Assembly (NCBI GenBank): GCA_002708475.1 | Contig: PAOL01000009.1 | Location: forward strand, 49,350 to 94,324 | DNA: 44,975 nucleotides | Origin: Oleispira sp. | GTDB lineage: Bacteria; Pseudomonadota; Gammaproteobacteria; Pseudomonadales; Oceanobacteraceae | Direction of reading: 5' to 3' | Shown: positions 2,327-10,351 of the stretch, piece by piece | Layout: each line of letters opens with the position of its first letter | How positions within the stretch are numbered: the first letter of the stretch is position 1 | Program-made: the position numbers and the translations under genes | The notes under the pieces: model-generated | What the model was told of the DNA's origin: nothing | The model's input: the letters and a program-made list of their open reading frames with translations, nothing else | Databases searched by the model: none

Positions 2327-2333
2327 AGGCTTG

Positions 2334-4970
2334 ATGATGCAAGACACGCAACCGAAAAATATTTATTTGAAAGATTATCAGCCTCCGCATTTTGTTATTG
2401 AGGAGACTCACTTACGCTTCGATCTTTTTGAGGATTATAGCCAAGTGGATAGTCGCCTAGTTATGCGCCGAAATAATGAGCAGCATGCAAATTATGCTGG
2501 ACCTCTTGTGCTGGTTGGTCAGCAGCTAGAATTGTTGAGCATTAAAGTTGATGGGCAGTCATTAACAGCCGATGACTATCAGCTAGAAGGTGATAACTTA
2601 ACGATTTATAAGGTCACTGACGAATTTGTATTAGAAATATCGACGCGAATTGAACCGCAAAATAACACGGCGTTAGAAGGTTTATATAAGTCGGGTGGTA
2701 TGTTTTGTACTCAATGTGAAGCTGAAGGCTTTCGTCGTATTACGTACTTTTTAGATCGACCTGATGTGATGAGTATATTCACGACTGAAGTTATTGCAGA
2801 TAGTACAAAATATCCGATTTTATTATCGAACGGTAATGCAGTTGAAAGAAAAGAATTAGATTCTGGCCGTCATAGTGTTACTTGGCACGATCCACATAAG
2901 AAACCCTGCTATTTGTTTGCGCTAGTGGCAGGTTCATTGTTGGTTAAAGAAGATACCTTTGTGACGATGTCTGGTCGTACCGTCGACTTACAAATATTTG
3001 TTGAGCCACAAAATATTGATAAAACCGACTATGCAATGGACGCGCTTAAGCGTTCGATGAAGTGGGATGAAGATAAGTACGGCCGCGAGTATGATTTAGA
3101 TATTTTTATGATCGTTGCGGTTGATGATTTCAATATGGGGGCAATGGAAAATAAGGGACTCAATATCTTTAATTCCTCGTGCGTATTGGCCAACCCCCAA
3201 ACTGCAACAGATATTGCTTATCAGCGAATTGAAGCCATTGTTGCTCATGAATACTTTCATAACTGGTCGGGTAATCGAGTCACTTGTCGAGATTGGTTTC
3301 AGTTAAGTTTGAAAGAAGGTTTTACCGTTTATCGTGATGCACAGTTCACGGCTGATATGAATTCAGCGACGGTTAAGCGAATTGAGGATGCTAGCTTAAT
3401 GCGCACAGTTCAGTTTGCAGAGGATGCAGGTCCAATGGCTCATCCTGTGCAGCCTGATTCGTTTATTGAAATCTCAAACTTCTATACCGTCACTATCTAT
3501 GAAAAAGGTTGTGAAGTTGTAGGCATGATTAATAAATTATTGGGTAATGAAGGCTTCCGTAAAGGATCTGACCTGTATTTTGAACGCCATGACGGCCAAG
3601 CTGTAACCATCAATGAATTTATATCGGCGATGGAGGATGCTAATAGCATCTCATTAACGCAATTCAAACGTTGGTATAAATCAGCGGGTACTCCCGTTGT
3701 CGATGTTGAAAGTCATTTTGATGAAGTCGCTAAAACCTATACATTAAATTTCAAGCAATCCTGTGCTGAACCTTTCTTAATACCTATTGAATTAGGTCTG
3801 TTAGGAAAAAATGGTAATGATCTTGAAATAGTCGTTGATGAAAATTTATCATCTAAGGCTGAAAGCTTCAGTGGTGGTATCTTCCAACTAACTGAAAAAG
3901 AACAGACTCTGGTCTTTAAGGGTATTGAATCAGAACCTGTGCCATCGTTGCTACGAGATTTTTCTGCTCCTATAAAATTAAATTACGACTACAGTCGTGA
4001 TCAATTATTGTTTTTACTACAGTATGATAGTGATGGCTTCAACTGTTGGGATGCAGGCCAGAGCTTGGCGCTTGATGTTATCTATGAGGTTATGTCACAA
4101 CAAAAAGAAGGCTTACCATTAGAGGTTGATTCGCGTTTAGTGAATGCGTATCAAGGTTTGTTGCAGCGTGAAGATTTGGATCATGCAATGTTGGCAAAAA
4201 TGCTGATTTTGCCAAGTATTTCTTATATTGCTGAAACTCAGGCAGAAATAGATATTCATGCAATTGATCAAGCTCGTATGTATGTGCAAACGGTTCTGGC
4301 AGATGCCTTAGCTGAGAATTTAGCCAGCCTATATAACCGCCTAAATGTTGAGCAAGGGTATTTACCTGAGCCGACTCAAATGGCGCAGCGTGGATTGAAA
4401 AATGCAGCGTTAAATTACTTATTAAAATCAACAAACAGTGACTACAAAGCCTTAGCTGTTAAGCAGTTTGAGAATAACGACAATATGACCGATAGTATGG
4501 CTGCACTAGCCAGTTTAGTGAATTCGGCTCATAAGCTTGAGGCTGAATCTGCATTAACTGCTTTCTATAAAAAATGGCAAGCAGAGCCTTTAGTAGTTAA
4601 TCAATGGTTGGCTGTGCAAGCAGGATCTGCTGAATATGGCTCTATTGAAAATATTCGTCAGTTGTTAAGTCATGAAGCTTTTGATATAAAAAATCCAAAC
4701 AAAGTGCGCTCTGTTATCGGCACATTTGCGGGTCAATCTTTAGTGAATTTCCATGCGAAAGATGGATCTGGCTATCAATTGTTGGCGGATAATATTATTT
4801 TATTGAATACGCTGAATCCACAAATTGCTTCACGTTTAGTTGCCCCTTTAAGTAAGTGGAGACGTTATGTTGACCATCAAGGTCAACAAATGAAGGCGCA
4901 ATTACAGAGAATTATGGCTCAGGAGTCTCTTTCAAAGGACGTTTACGAGGTAGTAAGTAAGAGTTTATAG
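2334..4970 (+). CDS. pepN: Aminopeptidase N (M1 zinc metallopeptidase)
   Basis: An 878-residue cytosolic M1 aminopeptidase that removes N-terminal amino acids from peptides during protein turnover. The substrate-binding exopeptidase motif GAMENKGLNIFNS is present, followed by the zinc motif HEYFH (H305, E306, H309) and the third ligand E328 in LKEGFTVYRD. The NRVTCRDWFQLSLKEG block is the PepN hallmark, and the length matches E. coli PepN (870). TTG 2331, ATG 2334 and ATG 2337 are adjacent in frame; ATG 2334 is chosen because an AAAGG lies about 5 bp upstream. The C-terminal half is the helical M1 domain. It ends before a 158-bp gap that carries a weak hairpin. Confidence 0.95.
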   Translation: MMQDTQPKNIYLKDYQPPHFVIEETHLRFDLFEDYSQVDSRLVMRRNNEQHANYAGPLVLVGQQLELLSIKVDGQSLTADDYQLEGDNLTIYKVTDEFVLEISTRIEPQNNTALEGLYKSGGMFCTQCEAEGFRRITYFLDRPDVMSIFTTEVIADSTKYPILLSNGNAVERKELDSGRHSVTWHDPHKKPCYLFALVAGSLLVKEDTFVTMSGRTVDLQIFVEPQNIDKTDYAMDALKRSMKWDEDKYGREYDLDIFMIVAVDDFNMGAMENKGLNIFNSSCVLANPQTATDIAYQRIEAIVAHEYFHNWSGNRVTCRDWFQLSLKEGFTVYRDAQFTADMNSATVKRIEDASLMRTVQFAEDAGPMAHPVQPDSFIEISNFYTVTIYEKGCEVVGMINKLLGNEGFRKGSDLYFERHDGQAVTINEFISAMEDANSISLTQFKRWYKSAGTPVVDVESHFDEVAKTYTLNFKQSCAEPFLIPIELGLLGKNGNDLEIVVDENLSSKAESFSGGIFQLTEKEQTLVFKGIESEPVPSLLRDFSAPIKLNYDYSRDQLLFLLQYDSDGFNCWDAGQSLALDVIYEVMSQQKEGLPLEVDSRLVNAYQGLLQREDLDHAMLAKMLILPSISYIAETQAEIDIHAIDQARMYVQTVLADALAENLASLYNRLNVEQGYLPEPTQMAQRGLKNAALNYLLKSTNSDYKALAVKQFENNDNMTDSMAALASLVNSAHKLEAESALTAFYKKWQAEPLVVNQWLAVQAGSAEYGSIENIRQLLSHEAFDIKNPNKVRSVIGTFAGQSLVNFHAKDGSGYQLLADNIILLNTLNPQIASRLVAPLSKWRRYVDHQGQQMKAQLQRIMAQESLSKDVYEVVSKSL

Positions 4971-5029: not shown

Positions 5030-5054
5030 GCCCTAGGCGCATTGAGACTAGGGC
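5030..5054. terminator. Weak hairpin after pepN
   Basis: GCCCTAG at 5030-5036 pairs with CTAGGGC at 5048-5054 around an 11-nt loop. The following sequence (TAACTTTCTTTA) is only partly T-rich, so termination is plausible but not strong. A second 7-bp inverted repeat (GCACAAA/TTTGTGC, 4990-5012) lies just upstream. Confidence 0.4.
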
Positions 5055-5128: not shown

Positions 5129-6496
5129 ATGAAAAAGCACAATTGGGTCGCGGCTGGCGTTTTGGTATTGGCAGCATTTAGCCAATTAACCACAGCAGCA
5201 GTTTCCGTTCAGCAGGCTGAACGCCTTAAGGGTGAATTAACACCTTTGGGTGCAGAGCGTGCAGGTAATGGTAAAGATATTCCTGTATGGCGAGGCGGTG
5301 TTTCGGTACCGGCCTTGGATTATAAAAAGTCAGGTCAACATCATCCAAACCCTTATCCGCAAGATAAACCATTATTCGTCATTACAGCGGATAATGTAGA
5401 AACCCACAAAGAATTTTTGACCGATGGTCAATTAGCATTATTTAAAACGTATCCTGATACATTTAAAATGCCAATTTACCAAACGCGCCGAAGTGCAGCC
5501 GCACCAGAATGGATATATGAGAATACCTATAAAAATGCCATTCGAGCAGAGTTAAATCAAAATGGTGCAGGGCTTCGTTATGCCTATGGTGGAATACCAT
5601 TTCCTATTGCAAAAAATGGTTTAGAAGCAATCTGGAATCACATCACGCGCTGGCGTGGGGTTTTCTTTAGCCGACGTTCTTCAGAAGTAGCCGTACAAAA
5701 AGATGGTGGCTTTTCTCTAGTAACTGTTCAGCAAGATATCCTGTTTAATTACTATAACCCAACAGCAACGATTGATGAGTTGAATAATATTCTGTTCTAT
5801 TACTTATCTTTTACAAAAGCGCCTGCGCGATTAGCGGGTGGTGCGGTATTGGTTCATGAAACTATCGATCAGGTTGAAGAATCTCGTCAAGCATGGGGCT
5901 ATAACGCGGGTCAGCGTCGTGTTCGTCGTGCGCCTAACCTAGCTTATGACACGCCTATTGCGGCTGCTGATGGTCTTCGTTATGCCGATGATACGGATAT
6001 GTATAACGGTGCCCCTGATCGTTACGACTGGAAGTTAGTAGAAAAGAAAGAAATATATATTCCTTACAATAACTATGACTTGTCTAGCAAACAGTTAACG
6101 TATAAAGAAATTCTAAAGCCTGGACACATTAATCCTGATCATACGCGTTACGAAAAACACCGCGTTTGGGTTGTAGAAGCAACTTTAAAAGAAGGTGCGC
6201 GTCACGTTTATAATAAGCGCCGTTTCTTCCTTGATGAAGACACTTGGGGCATTGCGGTTGCAGATCAATATGACAGTGCAGGCGATTTATGGCGTGTCAG
6301 TATGGCTTACTTGAAAAATTATTATGAATTGCCAGTAACTTGGACAACGCTAGATGTTTTCCATGATGTTAAAGCAAGACGTTATCACGTACAGGGTTTA
6401 GATAACGAAGAGCGCAGCACGGTTGACTTTAGTTTGGATCTTCCAAACGACCAATATTTTACGCCTTCGGCATTACGTCGTCGTGGTAAACGTTAA
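5129..6496 (+). CDS. DUF1329 domain-containing periplasmic/outer-membrane-associated protein
   Basis: A 455-residue exported protein. Residues 1-23 form a Sec signal peptide (MKKHNWVAAGVLVLAAFSQL, ending TTAA). The mature part has the DUF1329 pattern: an early LTPLGAERAGN, DKPLFVITADN, a central YYNPTATIDELNN, tyrosine-rich RYDWKLVEKKEIYIPYN, and RFFLDEDTWGIAVADQYD with WRVSMAYLKNYYELP near the C terminus. Relatives are sometimes annotated as outer-membrane lipoprotein-sorting-like (LolA/LolB-type fold), which would suit binding of a lipid or hydrophobic ligand; this is family knowledge, not something shown here. It leads a module with a YCF48 protein and an RND transporter. In other genomes this set often includes a DUF1302 gene just upstream; here the upstream gene is pepN. 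Confidence 0.85.
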   Translation: MKKHNWVAAGVLVLAAFSQLTTAAVSVQQAERLKGELTPLGAERAGNGKDIPVWRGGVSVPALDYKKSGQHHPNPYPQDKPLFVITADNVETHKEFLTDGQLALFKTYPDTFKMPIYQTRRSAAAPEWIYENTYKNAIRAELNQNGAGLRYAYGGIPFPIAKNGLEAIWNHITRWRGVFFSRRSSEVAVQKDGGFSLVTVQQDILFNYYNPTATIDELNNILFYYLSFTKAPARLAGGAVLVHETIDQVEESRQAWGYNAGQRRVRRAPNLAYDTPIAAADGLRYADDTDMYNGAPDRYDWKLVEKKEIYIPYNNYDLSSKQLTYKEILKPGHINPDHTRYEKHRVWVVEATLKEGARHVYNKRRFFLDEDTWGIAVADQYDSAGDLWRVSMAYLKNYYELPVTWTTLDVFHDVKARRYHVQGLDNEERSTVDFSLDLPNDQYFTPSALRRRGKR

Positions 6497-6593
6497 TAAA
6501 TAACATTATTTAACACATGTAAATTAGATAAATTGTTCAAGGTCGGCTATGCTAGCGGCCTTCAAAAAAATTATAAAAAATCTGGAGCGTTAT

Positions 6594-7808
6594 ATGAGAT
6601 TCCCATCGATTCGAATGAGAATCGTTACGGTAGCCCCGCCAAAAATATTTGTTAAATCTGCATTACTTGTGATCAGTTTAATGTTTACGACATTGGCGCA
6701 GTCAGCATGGCAAGATCCATTGGTAACACCAGCGTTATCGACTGATCGAGCTCATGAAAGCTTATTATTAGATATTACCCGTGTTGGCAGCCGTTTAATC
6801 GCTGTCGGTGCTCATGGGCACATTGTTTATTCTGATGACAGTGGTAAAAGTTGGTCTCAGTCTCGCACACCTTCTTCAGTTACATTAACGGCAGTTTACT
6901 TTGCTAGTGCAACTAAAGGTTGGGCAGTAGGTCATGATGGTTTGATCCTGCATTCAGAAGATGCCGGTGAAACTTGGGTTAAGCAGTTTGATGGTTACTT
7001 AGCAAACACGGCGATTGTAAAAGGTGCCAGTGAAAATAAAGACAAGGCGATTGCTGCTTTGACTGAAGCTGAGAAATCCGGTGATGCTACAGAAATTGAT
7101 AATGCTGAAATGTTTTTAGAAAACATCACTTATGCATTAGAAGATGCTCAATATGATCAAGAAAGTGGTTCTACTAAGCCTTTCTTAGATGTTTGGTTTT
7201 ATGATGCAAATATAGGTTTTGCTGTAGGCGCATACGGTATGGCTTTCCATACGACAGATGGTGGAAAAAACTGGATCGATTGGTCTTCTCATTTAGATAA
7301 TAATGATCGCTTGCATATCAATGGTATCGCGATGGTTGGTGCTCGTTCTTTAATGGTAGTTGGAGAGCAGGGCTTAATCTTACGTTCTGATGATATGGGT
7401 GAAAATTGGCGTGCAATACCATCTCCTTATGAAGGTTCATTTTTTGGTTTAAGCGCACAAAGAGATAATGTCTTAGTATTTGGCTTACGTGGAAATCTTT
7501 ATCACTCTGTCGATGGTGGTATTCAGTGGCAAAAAGTTTACACCAACTCTGAACAAACATTGATGGCGGGTGTTACGAAAACAAATAAATCGCATGTTCT
7601 TGTTGGCAATGGGGGTTCAGTTGTTTTGTTAAACCGTCGCTCAGAAGATGCAAAATCCATTATATTACCAGGTCGAACTACTTCAGCTTCTGTAGCTCAA
7701 GCGCCTGACGGTACTATTGTTATCGTTGGTGAAGCAGGTATTGAGCGTATTAATACCAAAGGGTTAGTGATTGATGAAACAATTACTATGGCTGAAGGGA
7801 ACTTCTAA
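6594..7808 (+). CDS. YCF48-related beta-propeller protein, exported
   Basis: A 404-residue protein with a signal peptide (hydrophobic KSALLVISLMFTTLAQSA) and repeated YCF48/BNR-like blades: SDDSGKSWSQS, GWAVGHDGLILHSEDAGETW, GFAVGAYGMAFHTTDGGKNW, GEQGLILRSDDMGENW and VDGGIQWQKV. Each repeat pairs a VG.xG strand with a downstream G-x-x-W turn. A helical insertion of roughly 60 residues (about 145-205, DKAIAALTEAEKSG...) interrupts the propeller, as in homologues encoded beside RND transporters. ATG 6594 is chosen over 6549 because GGAG lies 6 bp upstream. It ends 2 bp before the transporter, so it is very likely a partner or assembly subunit of that transporter. YCF48 proteins of plastids and cyanobacteria assist photosystem assembly; that role does not apply here. 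Confidence 0.85.
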   Translation: MRFPSIRMRIVTVAPPKIFVKSALLVISLMFTTLAQSAWQDPLVTPALSTDRAHESLLLDITRVGSRLIAVGAHGHIVYSDDSGKSWSQSRTPSSVTLTAVYFASATKGWAVGHDGLILHSEDAGETWVKQFDGYLANTAIVKGASENKDKAIAALTEAEKSGDATEIDNAEMFLENITYALEDAQYDQESGSTKPFLDVWFYDANIGFAVGAYGMAFHTTDGGKNWIDWSSHLDNNDRLHINGIAMVGARSLMVVGEQGLILRSDDMGENWRAIPSPYEGSFFGLSAQRDNVLVFGLRGNLYHSVDGGIQWQKVYTNSEQTLMAGVTKTNKSHVLVGNGGSVVLLNRRSEDAKSIILPGRTTSASVAQAPDGTIVIVGEAGIERINTKGLVIDETITMAEGNF

Positions 7809-7810
7809 TC

Positions 7811-10300
7811 ATGTCTAATAAAAATAATGTAAACCATAAAACATCAGAACCAGAACATTTTATAATATCGCCAGTTACTGAACCGTTCTTAGAAAGAATG
7901 CTGTTCAGTGCTCGACCTGTTGTGTTGGCAATTCTTGCGATTTTAACGATAGTATTTTCTTATGGTCTAACTCAAATTAAGTTAGATTCAAGCATCGAAA
8001 AATACATCCCTCTGCAGCACCAATTTATTAAAAACTACCTTGTTCATAAAGATGAATTAGGCAGTGGGTTATCAAATATCAAGTTGTCCGTTGAAACTAA
8101 GGGCGGTGATATTTTTACTAAAGAATACATGGCTACGTTACAGCGTATTAATGATGAGATTTTCTTCATTAAAGGCGTTGATCGTTCAGCATTAAAATCT
8201 TTATGGACTCCGAATGTTCGTTGGATGGAAGTAACAGAAGAAGGTTTCCAAGGTGGACCGGTTATTCCTGCAACGTATGATGGCTCTGAAGAAAGCTTAA
8301 ATGAATTACGTCAGAATGTATTAAAATCGGGTCAGTTAGGTCGCTTAGTTGCGAATAACTTTAGTTCGACCATTATTGATATTCCTCTTGTTGAAATCGA
8401 TCCTGATACTGGTGAGAAAGTAGATTACCAAGCATTCTCACGTGCGCTAGAAGAAAAAGTTCGTGATGCTTTTAGCAGTGATGACATCGCTGTATATATG
8501 ACAGGAACGCCAAAGAAACTGGCTGATTTGTTAGATGGTGTTGCTTCTATTGGTTTGTTTTTCATTGCCGCTATTATCTTCACTGCTATTTTATTATTCC
8601 TTTATTCTCGTTGTATTCGAGGCACCTTGATTCCTATTGTTGCATCATTAATTGCAGTTGTTTGGCAGTTAGGGGCACTTGCATTAATGGGCTTTACCAT
8701 TGATCTATATTCTGTATTGGTACCTTTCTTGGTATTTGCTATTGGTATTAGTCATGGTGTTCAGATTATTAGTGGGATTGCGATTGAGTCGGGTAAGGGC
8801 GCTAACAAATTAATGGCATCCCGTTTAGCTTTCCGTGGCTTGTATGTTCCAGGTATGTTGGCTTTATTGAGTGACGGTTTAGGTTTTGCGACGTTACTCT
8901 TTATTGAAATCGGAGTAATTCAAGAACTAGCCATTGCTGCAAGTGTGGGTGTTGCAATGATTATTGTTACTAACCTAGTACTTATGCCATTAGTTATGTC
9001 TTATGTTGGTATCAGTAAATCAGGCGTTAATCATGCTGTGAATAATGAAAAGGCTGAGCCTAAACTTTGGAGAGCATTGTCAAAAATCGCAAGTCCAAAA
9101 ATAGCTCCTTTCCCAATTATTATTGCCATTGTTTTAGCGGTAGGTGGTGTTTATAAGAGCCAATCATTAAAGATAGGTGATTTGGACGCAGGTGCTCCTG
9201 AACTTCGTCAAGATTCTCGCTATAACCTTGATAATGCTTACATGGTAGAAAATTACTCGACCAGCTCAGATGTTTTCTTAGTGATGGTTGAAACAGCGAA
9301 AGAACATTGTAATAGTTATAAAGTGATGGACTCGATTGATCGCTTTATGTGGTATATGGAAAATGTTCCTGGCGTTCAATCGACTGTTTCTATGGTAACG
9401 GTTTCTAAGCTGGTAACAAAAGGCATGAACGAAGGTAACTTAAAGTGGTCTGCGCTATCTCGTAACCAGACAATCTTAAATACCTCAATTCAACGTGCTC
9501 CAGCAGCGCTATTAAACTCTGATTGTTCAATGGCTCCTGTGCTTGTATATCTAAATGATCACAAAGCAGAAACACTAGAGAATGCTGTTATTGCTGTTGA
9601 AGCCTTTAAAGAGAAGTATGACGATACCGTTGATGAAAAATACTTCGCTATGGGTATTGATGGCATTCAGCAGGCAATTGCTGATGGTGAGATTGATACT
9701 GCTCCAGTTCGTTTTCAATTAGCATCAGGTAATGCGGGTATTGAAGCTGCAACCAACGAAGTGATTGGTGACGCGCAAAATACCATGTTGATTTTCGTAT
9801 ACGTTGTTGTATTCGTTCTATGTTTCTCAACGTTCCGTTCTATCCGTGCTATCGCTTGTATCTTAATTCCATTGGCTTTGACTTCCATCCTTTGCCAAGC
9901 ATTAATGGCTTACTTAGGTATAGGCGTTAAAGTAGCAACTTTACCTGTAATTGCATTAGGTGTAGGTATTGGTGTCGATTATGGTATATACATTTATAAC
10001 CGCTTAGAAGTTATGTTGATTGCTGGTAAAACATTGCAAGAAGCTTTCTTTGAAACGCTTAGATCAACAGGTAAAGCAGTAAGCTTCACGGGTATTACCC
10101 TTGCGATTGGTGTTGGTACGTGGATGTTCTCTCCAATTAAGTTCCAAGCAGATATGGGTATTCTATTAACCTTTATGTTCTTGTTGAATATGTTGGGTGC
10201 ATTGATTTTGCTACCTGCGCTAGCGACATTTATCTTAAAGCCTAAGCAGATTATTGCTCGCCATCAGAAACAACATGGTGAGTTAGATCCTGCTGGTTAG
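7811..10300 (+). CDS. RND superfamily transporter, MMPL/HAE3-like
   Basis: An 829-residue inner-membrane transporter with the duplicated RND layout. TM1 is at about residues 38-56, followed by a periplasmic loop, a five-TM bundle (about 245-400), TM7 near residue 430, a second periplasmic loop, and a final five-TM bundle (655-815). The second bundle carries GVGIGVDYGIYIYNR with the expected TM4-type proton-relay Asp (D723). In the first bundle the equivalent is AIGISHGVQI, where Ser314 occupies the Asp position. At 829 residues it is far shorter than tripartite AcrB-type pumps (about 1,050), and no membrane-fusion protein or TolC gene is adjacent, so it belongs with MMPL/HpnN-like lipid or hydrophobe transporters. 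It is co-transcribed with the YCF48 and DUF1329 genes. Confidence 0.88.
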   Translation: MSNKNNVNHKTSEPEHFIISPVTEPFLERMLFSARPVVLAILAILTIVFSYGLTQIKLDSSIEKYIPLQHQFIKNYLVHKDELGSGLSNIKLSVETKGGDIFTKEYMATLQRINDEIFFIKGVDRSALKSLWTPNVRWMEVTEEGFQGGPVIPATYDGSEESLNELRQNVLKSGQLGRLVANNFSSTIIDIPLVEIDPDTGEKVDYQAFSRALEEKVRDAFSSDDIAVYMTGTPKKLADLLDGVASIGLFFIAAIIFTAILLFLYSRCIRGTLIPIVASLIAVVWQLGALALMGFTIDLYSVLVPFLVFAIGISHGVQIISGIAIESGKGANKLMASRLAFRGLYVPGMLALLSDGLGFATLLFIEIGVIQELAIAASVGVAMIIVTNLVLMPLVMSYVGISKSGVNHAVNNEKAEPKLWRALSKIASPKIAPFPIIIAIVLAVGGVYKSQSLKIGDLDAGAPELRQDSRYNLDNAYMVENYSTSSDVFLVMVETAKEHCNSYKVMDSIDRFMWYMENVPGVQSTVSMVTVSKLVTKGMNEGNLKWSALSRNQTILNTSIQRAPAALLNSDCSMAPVLVYLNDHKAETLENAVIAVEAFKEKYDDTVDEKYFAMGIDGIQQAIADGEIDTAPVRFQLASGNAGIEAATNEVIGDAQNTMLIFVYVVVFVLCFSTFRSIRAIACILIPLALTSILCQALMAYLGIGVKVATLPVIALGVGIGVDYGIYIYNRLEVMLIAGKTLQEAFFETLRSTGKAVSFTGITLAIGVGTWMFSPIKFQADMGILLTFMFLLNMLGALILLPALATFILKPKQIIARHQKQHGELDPAG

Positions 10301-10323: not shown

Positions 10324-10351
10324 AAGGCAGCCTCAGGGCTGCCTTTTTTTT
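10324..10351 (+). terminator. Strong rho-independent terminator after the RND gene
   Basis: GGCAGCC (10326-10332) pairs with GGCTGCC (10337-10343) around a TCAG loop. Upstream A residues pair with the start of an eight-T tract at 10344-10351. It closes the DUF1329-YCF48-RND transcript. Confidence 0.93.

Follow-up and report, generated by a model that had tools for sequence, protein, structure and literature searches.

The window analysed here is a 44,975-nucleotide stretch of an Oleispira sp. genome (assembly GCA_002708475.1, contig PAOL01000009.1, positions 49,350 to 94,324 of the forward strand). Downstream of pepN it carries a compact cluster of three genes encoding a DUF1329 protein, a YCF48-type propeller and a resistance-nodulation-division (RND) transporter, referred to below as B, C and D. 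Kinship of this cluster with the AmeABCD-type systems, in which a DUF1302 protein (A) is the fourth component, can be stated with high confidence; in the host genome A is encoded on another contig. The features of the cluster are as follows.

5129-6496, plus strand: B, exported DUF1329 protein of 455 residues, AmeB-type predicted periplasmic carrier (PF07044, 532 bits)
5609-6487, plus strand: modelled LolA-fold domain of B, residues 161-453 (structure alignment, VIA-align)
6594-7808, open reading frame (ORF) from 6549, plus strand: C, exported YCF48/BNR propeller, AmeC-type (PF14870, 75.4 bits)
6990-7178, plus strand: insertion in C, residues about 133-195, probably helical, lineage-specific (12-sequence alignment)
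7811-10300, plus strand: D, RND/MMPL transporter of 829 residues, AmeD-type (PF03176, 92.5 bits)
8750-8755, plus strand: Ser314-His315 of D in transmembrane segment 4 (TM4) (conservation and half-to-half alignment)
9977-9982, plus strand: Asp723-Tyr724 of D in TM10 (conservation)
10324-10345, plus strand: intrinsic-terminator-like hairpin and T-run at the cluster end (folding)
2331-4970, plus strand: pepN, conserved flanking gene that identifies the locus, outside the module (TIGR02414, 1239 bits; synteny)

An initial annotation had described three compact genes before one terminator, and the ORFs, their coordinates and the 10324-10345 hairpin confirmed this. B is separated by 52 nt from the C ORF (97 nt from the likelier start of C), and C from D by 2 nt. 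The C ORF encodes 419 residues, or 404 from the ATG at 6594, which is probably the start used because GGAG stands upstream of it. A 51-base stretch with the terminal hairpin folded with a z score of -3.25, none of 200 shuffles being equally good, and a weaker hairpin 3' of pepN (5030-5054) lies in a stretch with a z score of -0.67, for which 43 of 200 shuffles were equally good. The cluster is flanked by PepN (TIGR02414) upstream and an SbcD-like ORF downstream (this and the SulP-, TatD- and TetR-like ORFs below are named from sequence alone). No fusion protein or TolC was found among these immediate neighbours, as had been noted for this short RND protein, and neither the pepN-B interval nor any other part of the cluster holds a DUF1302 gene, in agreement with the absence upstream that had been pointed out. 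Nine comparisons (three genes in three close relatives) gave dN values of 0.08-0.22 and dS values, near saturation, of 1.4-3.6, indicating strong purifying selection on B, C and D.

The reading of B and C as exported proteins and of D as an RND protein was upheld by Pfam matches and by signal-peptide-like N-termini in B and C. These N-termini, and the helical nature of the insertion in C, were judged from the sequence, the former by eye. The PF07044 match spans the full length of B, and the nearest relatives of B come from three uncultured Oleispira assemblies (88, 88 and 86% identity) and one uncultured Thalassolituus assembly (83%). An AlphaFold2 model of B (pLDDT 88.6) aligned best with four LolA-superfamily chains (VIA-align Z of 22.4 for 9tp6, 19.6 for 4z48, 19.5 for 3bk5 and 15.8 for 3buu), followed by LolB (Z 11.2) and others at 8.2 or less. 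On this model residues 161-453 are a LolA-fold domain, in keeping with the LolA-like carrier proposed at the outset, and residues 23-160 form an additional N-terminal region, barely tested structurally. C matches PSII_BNR/YCF48 above the cut-off, and the best phmmer match to Ycf48-like structures had an E value of 1.1e-13. Its insertion is present in 8 of 12 aligned proteins; the four without it (three from Pseudomonas, one from a metagenome-assembled genome) rule out a helical insertion as a requirement for C.

D shows 12 hydropathy peaks, the first and seventh each followed by a gap of about 200 residues, a pattern that fits an RND protein having 12 transmembrane segments and two large periplasmic loops, and exceeds the MMPL cut-off. 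Its best NCBIfam match is TIGR00921 (HAE3), at 169.9 bits below the curated cut-off of 351.9, and among its weak sequence matches to PDB entries are chains of HpnN, MmpL and AcrB. TM4 carries Ser-His and TM10 Asp-Tyr in all 46 distinct D proteins of a first set of at least 770 residues each (window D included, two short D pieces of L034 left out) and in all 30 additional proteins, which are 28-78% identical to the queries. The 76 proteins compared are all distinct; D proteins cut by contig ends, such as that of G109, were left out of these counts, and G193 was also not included. Aligning the two halves of D places Ser314-His315 on Asp723-Tyr724 (score 79, versus a best of 75 in 500 shuffles). 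Such a pairing of TM4 Ser-His with TM10 Asp-Tyr would make an unusual relay. A second, shorter gene set lies on contig C69 of the same genome (L007:6754-11222, minus strand). It comprises a barrel-like ORF of 425 residues without a Pfam match, a LolA_like protein (PF17131, 222 bits) and a 776-residue MMPL protein with a sterol-sensing match, and it adjoins a TetR-like ORF. At these sites the C69 RND protein carries Ala-Asp (TM4) and Asp-Asp (TM10), its TM4 Asp aligning with His315.

Conservation of the cluster was examined in 39 genomes of the family, host included, by comparing gene positions by eye. B-C-D is contiguous in 37 of them (with D cut by the contig end in G036 and B matched partially or in pieces in genus g6), so that the neighbourhood survey bore out a conserved module. 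A lies inside the B-C-D cluster in none of these 37. A itself is present in 37 of the 39 genomes (incomplete in G020, and running up to the end of a contig in G000); none of A, full-length B, C and the D orthologue is present in G025. The host assembly is incomplete (81.6% complete, 75 contigs). A search elsewhere in the host genome, as the initial annotation had advised, located a single DUF1302 gene, which lies beside a VolA-type lipase on contig C7 and reaches the contig end; loss of DUF1302 from the genome was thereby rejected. Exactly one C match was found in 32 of the 39 genomes. B copies, counted at E <= 1e-100 with seven g6 genomes excluded, numbered three in 21 of the 39 genomes, two in five and four in two, with nine in G007, eleven in G010, two in the host and none in G025.

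A wider survey covered 206 genomes of the class at a threshold of E <= 1e-40. A was found in 32 of these, B in 35, C in 24 and D in 33, and none of the four in 171; all genomes having A, C or D fall among the 35 with B. The co-occurrence gave Fisher p values from 8e-25 to 3e-36, uncorrected for kinship. In the other C-bearing genomes A, B, C and D are contiguous in 22 of 23, in that order in 20; the exceptions are G158, with two B genes, and G209, with B-A-D-C. The remaining genome, G058, has A-C-D with no B between (C2:394845-400688). The G158 locus (C2:149823-166331) is a tandem array, A-B-B-C-D-A-B-C-D-B. Because the other C-bearing genomes of the class nearly all keep A in the cassette, the A-less cassette of the host lineage looks like a derived state. 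BLAST within fetched loci gave C matches below the class threshold in G147, G148, G217, G124, G108 and G233. C was found in all 20 tested genomes behind named loci, 15 of which had first shown A-B without C-D, and in 5 of 19 genomes of the genus of G172, which did not resemble Pseudomonas.

The cluster follows DUF2797-pepN across a wide taxonomic range. Of the 29 Pseudomonas pepN regions seen, 22 (11 of 17 and 11 of 12) have A in the interval from pepN to B; Hahella (L215) and the Oleispira-Thalassolituus-Bermanella group lack A at this place. Among 15 further genomes the pepN locus holds A-B-C-D in 11, B-C-D in one (Hahella) and C-D in two, and in one A-B-C-D occurs without a visible pepN. 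BLAST did not find A in six loci of the P. syringae group (L034-L039), where pepN lies about 6 kb from B and the intervening ORFs were inspected for L034 alone; the A-less B-C-D of this group is possibly an independent loss. Neither A nor B was found in the P. protegens locus (L205), L217 or L244, where C-D persist beside pepN; P. protegens carries its A-B away from C-D. Where most Pseudomonas regions hold A-B, P. protegens has a SulP-like ORF on the opposite strand (L205:11030-13520). In P. putida, PP_2017 is presumably pepN, for which a literature search gave no confirmation.

Upstream of A on contig C7 lie a divergent thiolase gene and two N-rich ORFs of the VolA/Pla-1 lipase family (92 and 137 bits; the cut-off of the lipase profile, TIGR03502, is 383.9 bits). 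We surveyed 20 A-B regions from 19 relatives in the family: a lipase lies directly upstream of A in 17, the divergent thiolase is present in 17, and DUF1329 follows A in all 20. The lipase matched PF12262 above the cut-off in all four relatives scanned. The same lipase family precedes three A-B-C-D cassettes of the class (L236, L237 and L224; 278-375 bits), the L224 lipase being split over two ORFs. Scanning of 79 of the 126 proteins collected around class cassettes revealed three thiolases, three Lipase_bact_N and two AMP-binding proteins, counts too thin for an enrichment claim. G010 has many A-B pairs, and a VolA-type lipase was found separately among their neighbours. The 10 neighbouring proteins scanned there were an AMP-binding ligase, a flavin monooxygenase, a fumarylacetoacetate hydrolase beside a glutathione S-transferase, a sulfatase, a beta-lactamase-family protein, an alanine-racemase-like protein, a LuxR-type regulator, a protein matching a Cache domain weakly and a protein with no match. 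Modelling of a Hahella homologue of A (pLDDT 72) gave a barrel closest to Occ/OprD porins (Z about 22), and the structural matches listed lent no support to a FadL-like barrel. Contig C1 holds another full-length DUF1329 gene (L005:10520-11875, 455.6 bits), which adjoins MltC and a TatD-like gene; this third DUF1329 is conserved in the family and also stands beside MltC, a lytic transglycosylase, in 10 of 11 relatives' regions.

The cluster had initially been termed uncharacterised, a term that does not hold: AmeABCD was deleted and assayed in 2018, and a growth phenotype on Tween 20 is on record for the P. putida counterparts. The AmeABCD genes of Castellaniella defragrans are described as a single cassette for DUF1302, DUF1329, COG4447 and HAE3-type RND proteins; the deletion mutant grows less well on monoterpenes and tolerates them less, its Nile Red accumulation is slightly higher, and acetate relieved its limonene sensitivity (PMC6394551). 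The host has the same four families, with a predicted periplasmic LolA-like DUF1329 protein, a COG4447/YCF48-related protein and an HAE3-type RND protein of about 800 residues, the likeness of D to AmeD and to P. putida PP_2019 resting on descriptions and not on sequence comparison. Whereas AmeABCD is a contiguous cassette in a monoterpene island, the window cassette lacks A, which lies elsewhere behind a lipase; and window C has 404 residues with the insertion, versus 316 for AmeC (PMC6394551). Since DUF1302 is not in the same cassette, we regard the arrangement as split and not as a plain AmeABCD-type member. The window system is of an already known, AmeABCD-type kind, and the split A-less arrangement sets it apart.

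Related arrangements have been described in other organisms. P. putida PP_0765/PP_0766 (DUF1302/DUF1329) and PP_2018/PP_2019 share a Tween 20 growth phenotype, and AlphaFold contacts are reported as strong for PP_2018 with PP_2019 and as weak between DUF1329 and either DUF1302 or the RND protein (PMC10866462); PP_2018 would be a YCF48-type protein. As in the host, A-B and the RND protein with its periplasmic partner are at separate loci in P. putida; unlike the P. putida set, the window keeps B beside C-D (PMC10866462). A 'nanopod' cluster of a benzene-degrading member of the Desulfobacterota, strongly expressed with a hydrophobic substrate, encodes porin-like, DUF1329, YCF48-related and MMPL proteins; its host is anaerobic, it is a single cluster with extra proteins, and the authors as described leave the direction open (PMC13101534). 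The same source cites a Delftia DUF1329 deletion as impairing growth on phenanthrene (PMC13101534). A-B without C-D is reported within a phenol-hydroxylase cluster (PMC7012976). The Vibrio cholerae lipase VolA frees fatty acids for the outer-membrane uptake protein FadL (PMC12208996). VolA is of the same broad family as the lipase beside A, FadL is of another barrel family than A, and the account as described names no DUF1329 or RND protein with them (PMC12208996). In each of the monoterpene, Tween 20 and phenanthrene phenotypes the cells grow poorly when the substrate is hydrophobic or amphiphilic, which fits either direction of transport.

On balance, we favour a reading in which B-C-D is part of an AmeABCD-type hydrophobe transporter, split between loci, that is somewhat more likely to take lipid products in than to expel them. 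D would be a proton-driven RND protein of the inner membrane, to whose periplasmic face the propeller C would dock; LolA-fold B may ferry a small hydrophobic or amphiphilic ligand across the periplasm, and the DUF1302 protein A, encoded in trans, would be the outer-membrane gate. During growth on lipids, fatty acids and other amphiphilic lipid products would thus move from the surface towards the inner membrane. It is probable that A acts in trans with C-D, of which the shared P. putida phenotype is, by analogy, the best published hint. Uptake of lipid products appears the likeliest job because A sits behind a VolA/Pla-1-type lipase and before its own DUF1329 (in 19 relatives), and the lipase and thiolase together favour nutrient uptake. 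Inward transport as such has about an even chance; an outward direction, serving tolerance, is a lesser possibility, and anything other than these two is unlikely. Lipid is a plausible substrate, the published substrates including monoterpenes and Tween 20. Of the hydrophobe/lipid trafficking initially assigned to the cluster, hydrophobe trafficking stands, and a lipid substrate is plausible.

Several observations weigh against inward movement of lipid products by a split system. RND relatives of known function are mostly exporters, and AmeABCD is read as an exporter by its authors (PMC6394551); this habit and the Castellaniella data favour export. The host A-B pair is not entire, A reaching the contig end and the lipase being N-rich; the lipase falls below the TIGR03502 cut-off in every protein tested (157-375 bits in seven relatives), and 3 of the 20 family A-B regions have no lipase at A. 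The A model gives no argument for uptake since it is Occ/OprD-like and of modest confidence (pLDDT 72), with FadL not among the listed structural matches. The parts can also occur separately: G028 has A-B and a B without a C or D orthologue, and G009 has B-C-D with no A found; in the class, D is missing from G161 and G182, which have A and B, and A from G200, G224 and G236, which have B and D.

Export is the alternative that survives best, although we consider it distinctly less than even in probability: the four-part machine, working through B and C and the trans-encoded A, would expel toxic hydrocarbons, fatty acids or solvents. The closest named relatives bear the genus names of oil degraders, both Oleispira and Thalassolituus being oil-degrading genera, and the best NCBIfam match of D is to the HAE3 efflux subfamily, below its cut-off. 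Deletion of AmeABCD reduces monoterpene tolerance and raises Nile Red accumulation, but the latter difference in print is slight (PMC6394551), and with a nutrient-type pairing of lipase and thiolase, export of the lipase's products would be odd. HpnN moves hopanoids, and the weak PDB matches of D to HpnN and MmpL chains, together with the DUF1329 paralogue beside the cell-wall enzyme MltC, could point to envelope homeostasis, in which B-C-D would supply the outer membrane with endogenous lipids or with a hydrophobic precursor and A would not be a partner. We consider this improbable: A, B and D co-occur almost perfectly in the class, mostly as one cassette, and G025 is without the whole set, which disfavours an essential housekeeping role. 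That the cargo or folding client of the system is the VolA-type lipase, or some other lipoprotein of the cell surface, and not a small molecule, as the LolA-likeness of B, the order lipase-A-B and an earlier suspicion that PP_0765 and PP_0766 have a role in hydrolase activity (PMC10866462) might suggest, is very improbable, given that only three lipases were seen among the 79 neighbouring proteins scanned and that the Castellaniella and benzene-consortium clusters, as described, name no lipase.

Independently of direction, C-D may be a shared inner-membrane engine, with the TM4 Ser-His/TM10 Asp-Tyr relay, for exchangeable, substrate-specific DUF1302-DUF1329 receptor-carrier pairs, comparable to a single TonB complex that works with many receptors. 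We put this forward tentatively, with inward transport only as a further possibility. Consistent with such an engine, all observed forms of the pepN locus retain C-D, with B or A-B variably present, and family genomes with three B genes mostly have one A and one C-D. Two g4 genomes have about seven A, nine or more B, one C and one D orthologue. The proposal is weakened by g6, in which an extra A is mostly accompanied by an extra C (A:C ratios of 5:5, 7:7, 2:2, 3:3, 3:2, 2:1 and 1:1 in G012-G018), and by G028, where A-B persists in the absence of C and D. The excess of A over C stems mainly from the draft genomes G007 and G010, and B proteins serving other functions could account for the surplus of B.

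To our knowledge, the passage of hydrophobic nutrients across the periplasm to the inner membrane is poorly understood in oil and lipid degraders. If transport is inward, the cluster would represent an RND-powered uptake system. Should a common C-D engine exist, the direction of AmeABCD transport, read in print as export, would have to be tested directly, and the functions of two large, uncharacterised protein families may become readable from the catabolic genes beside each DUF1302-DUF1329 pair.

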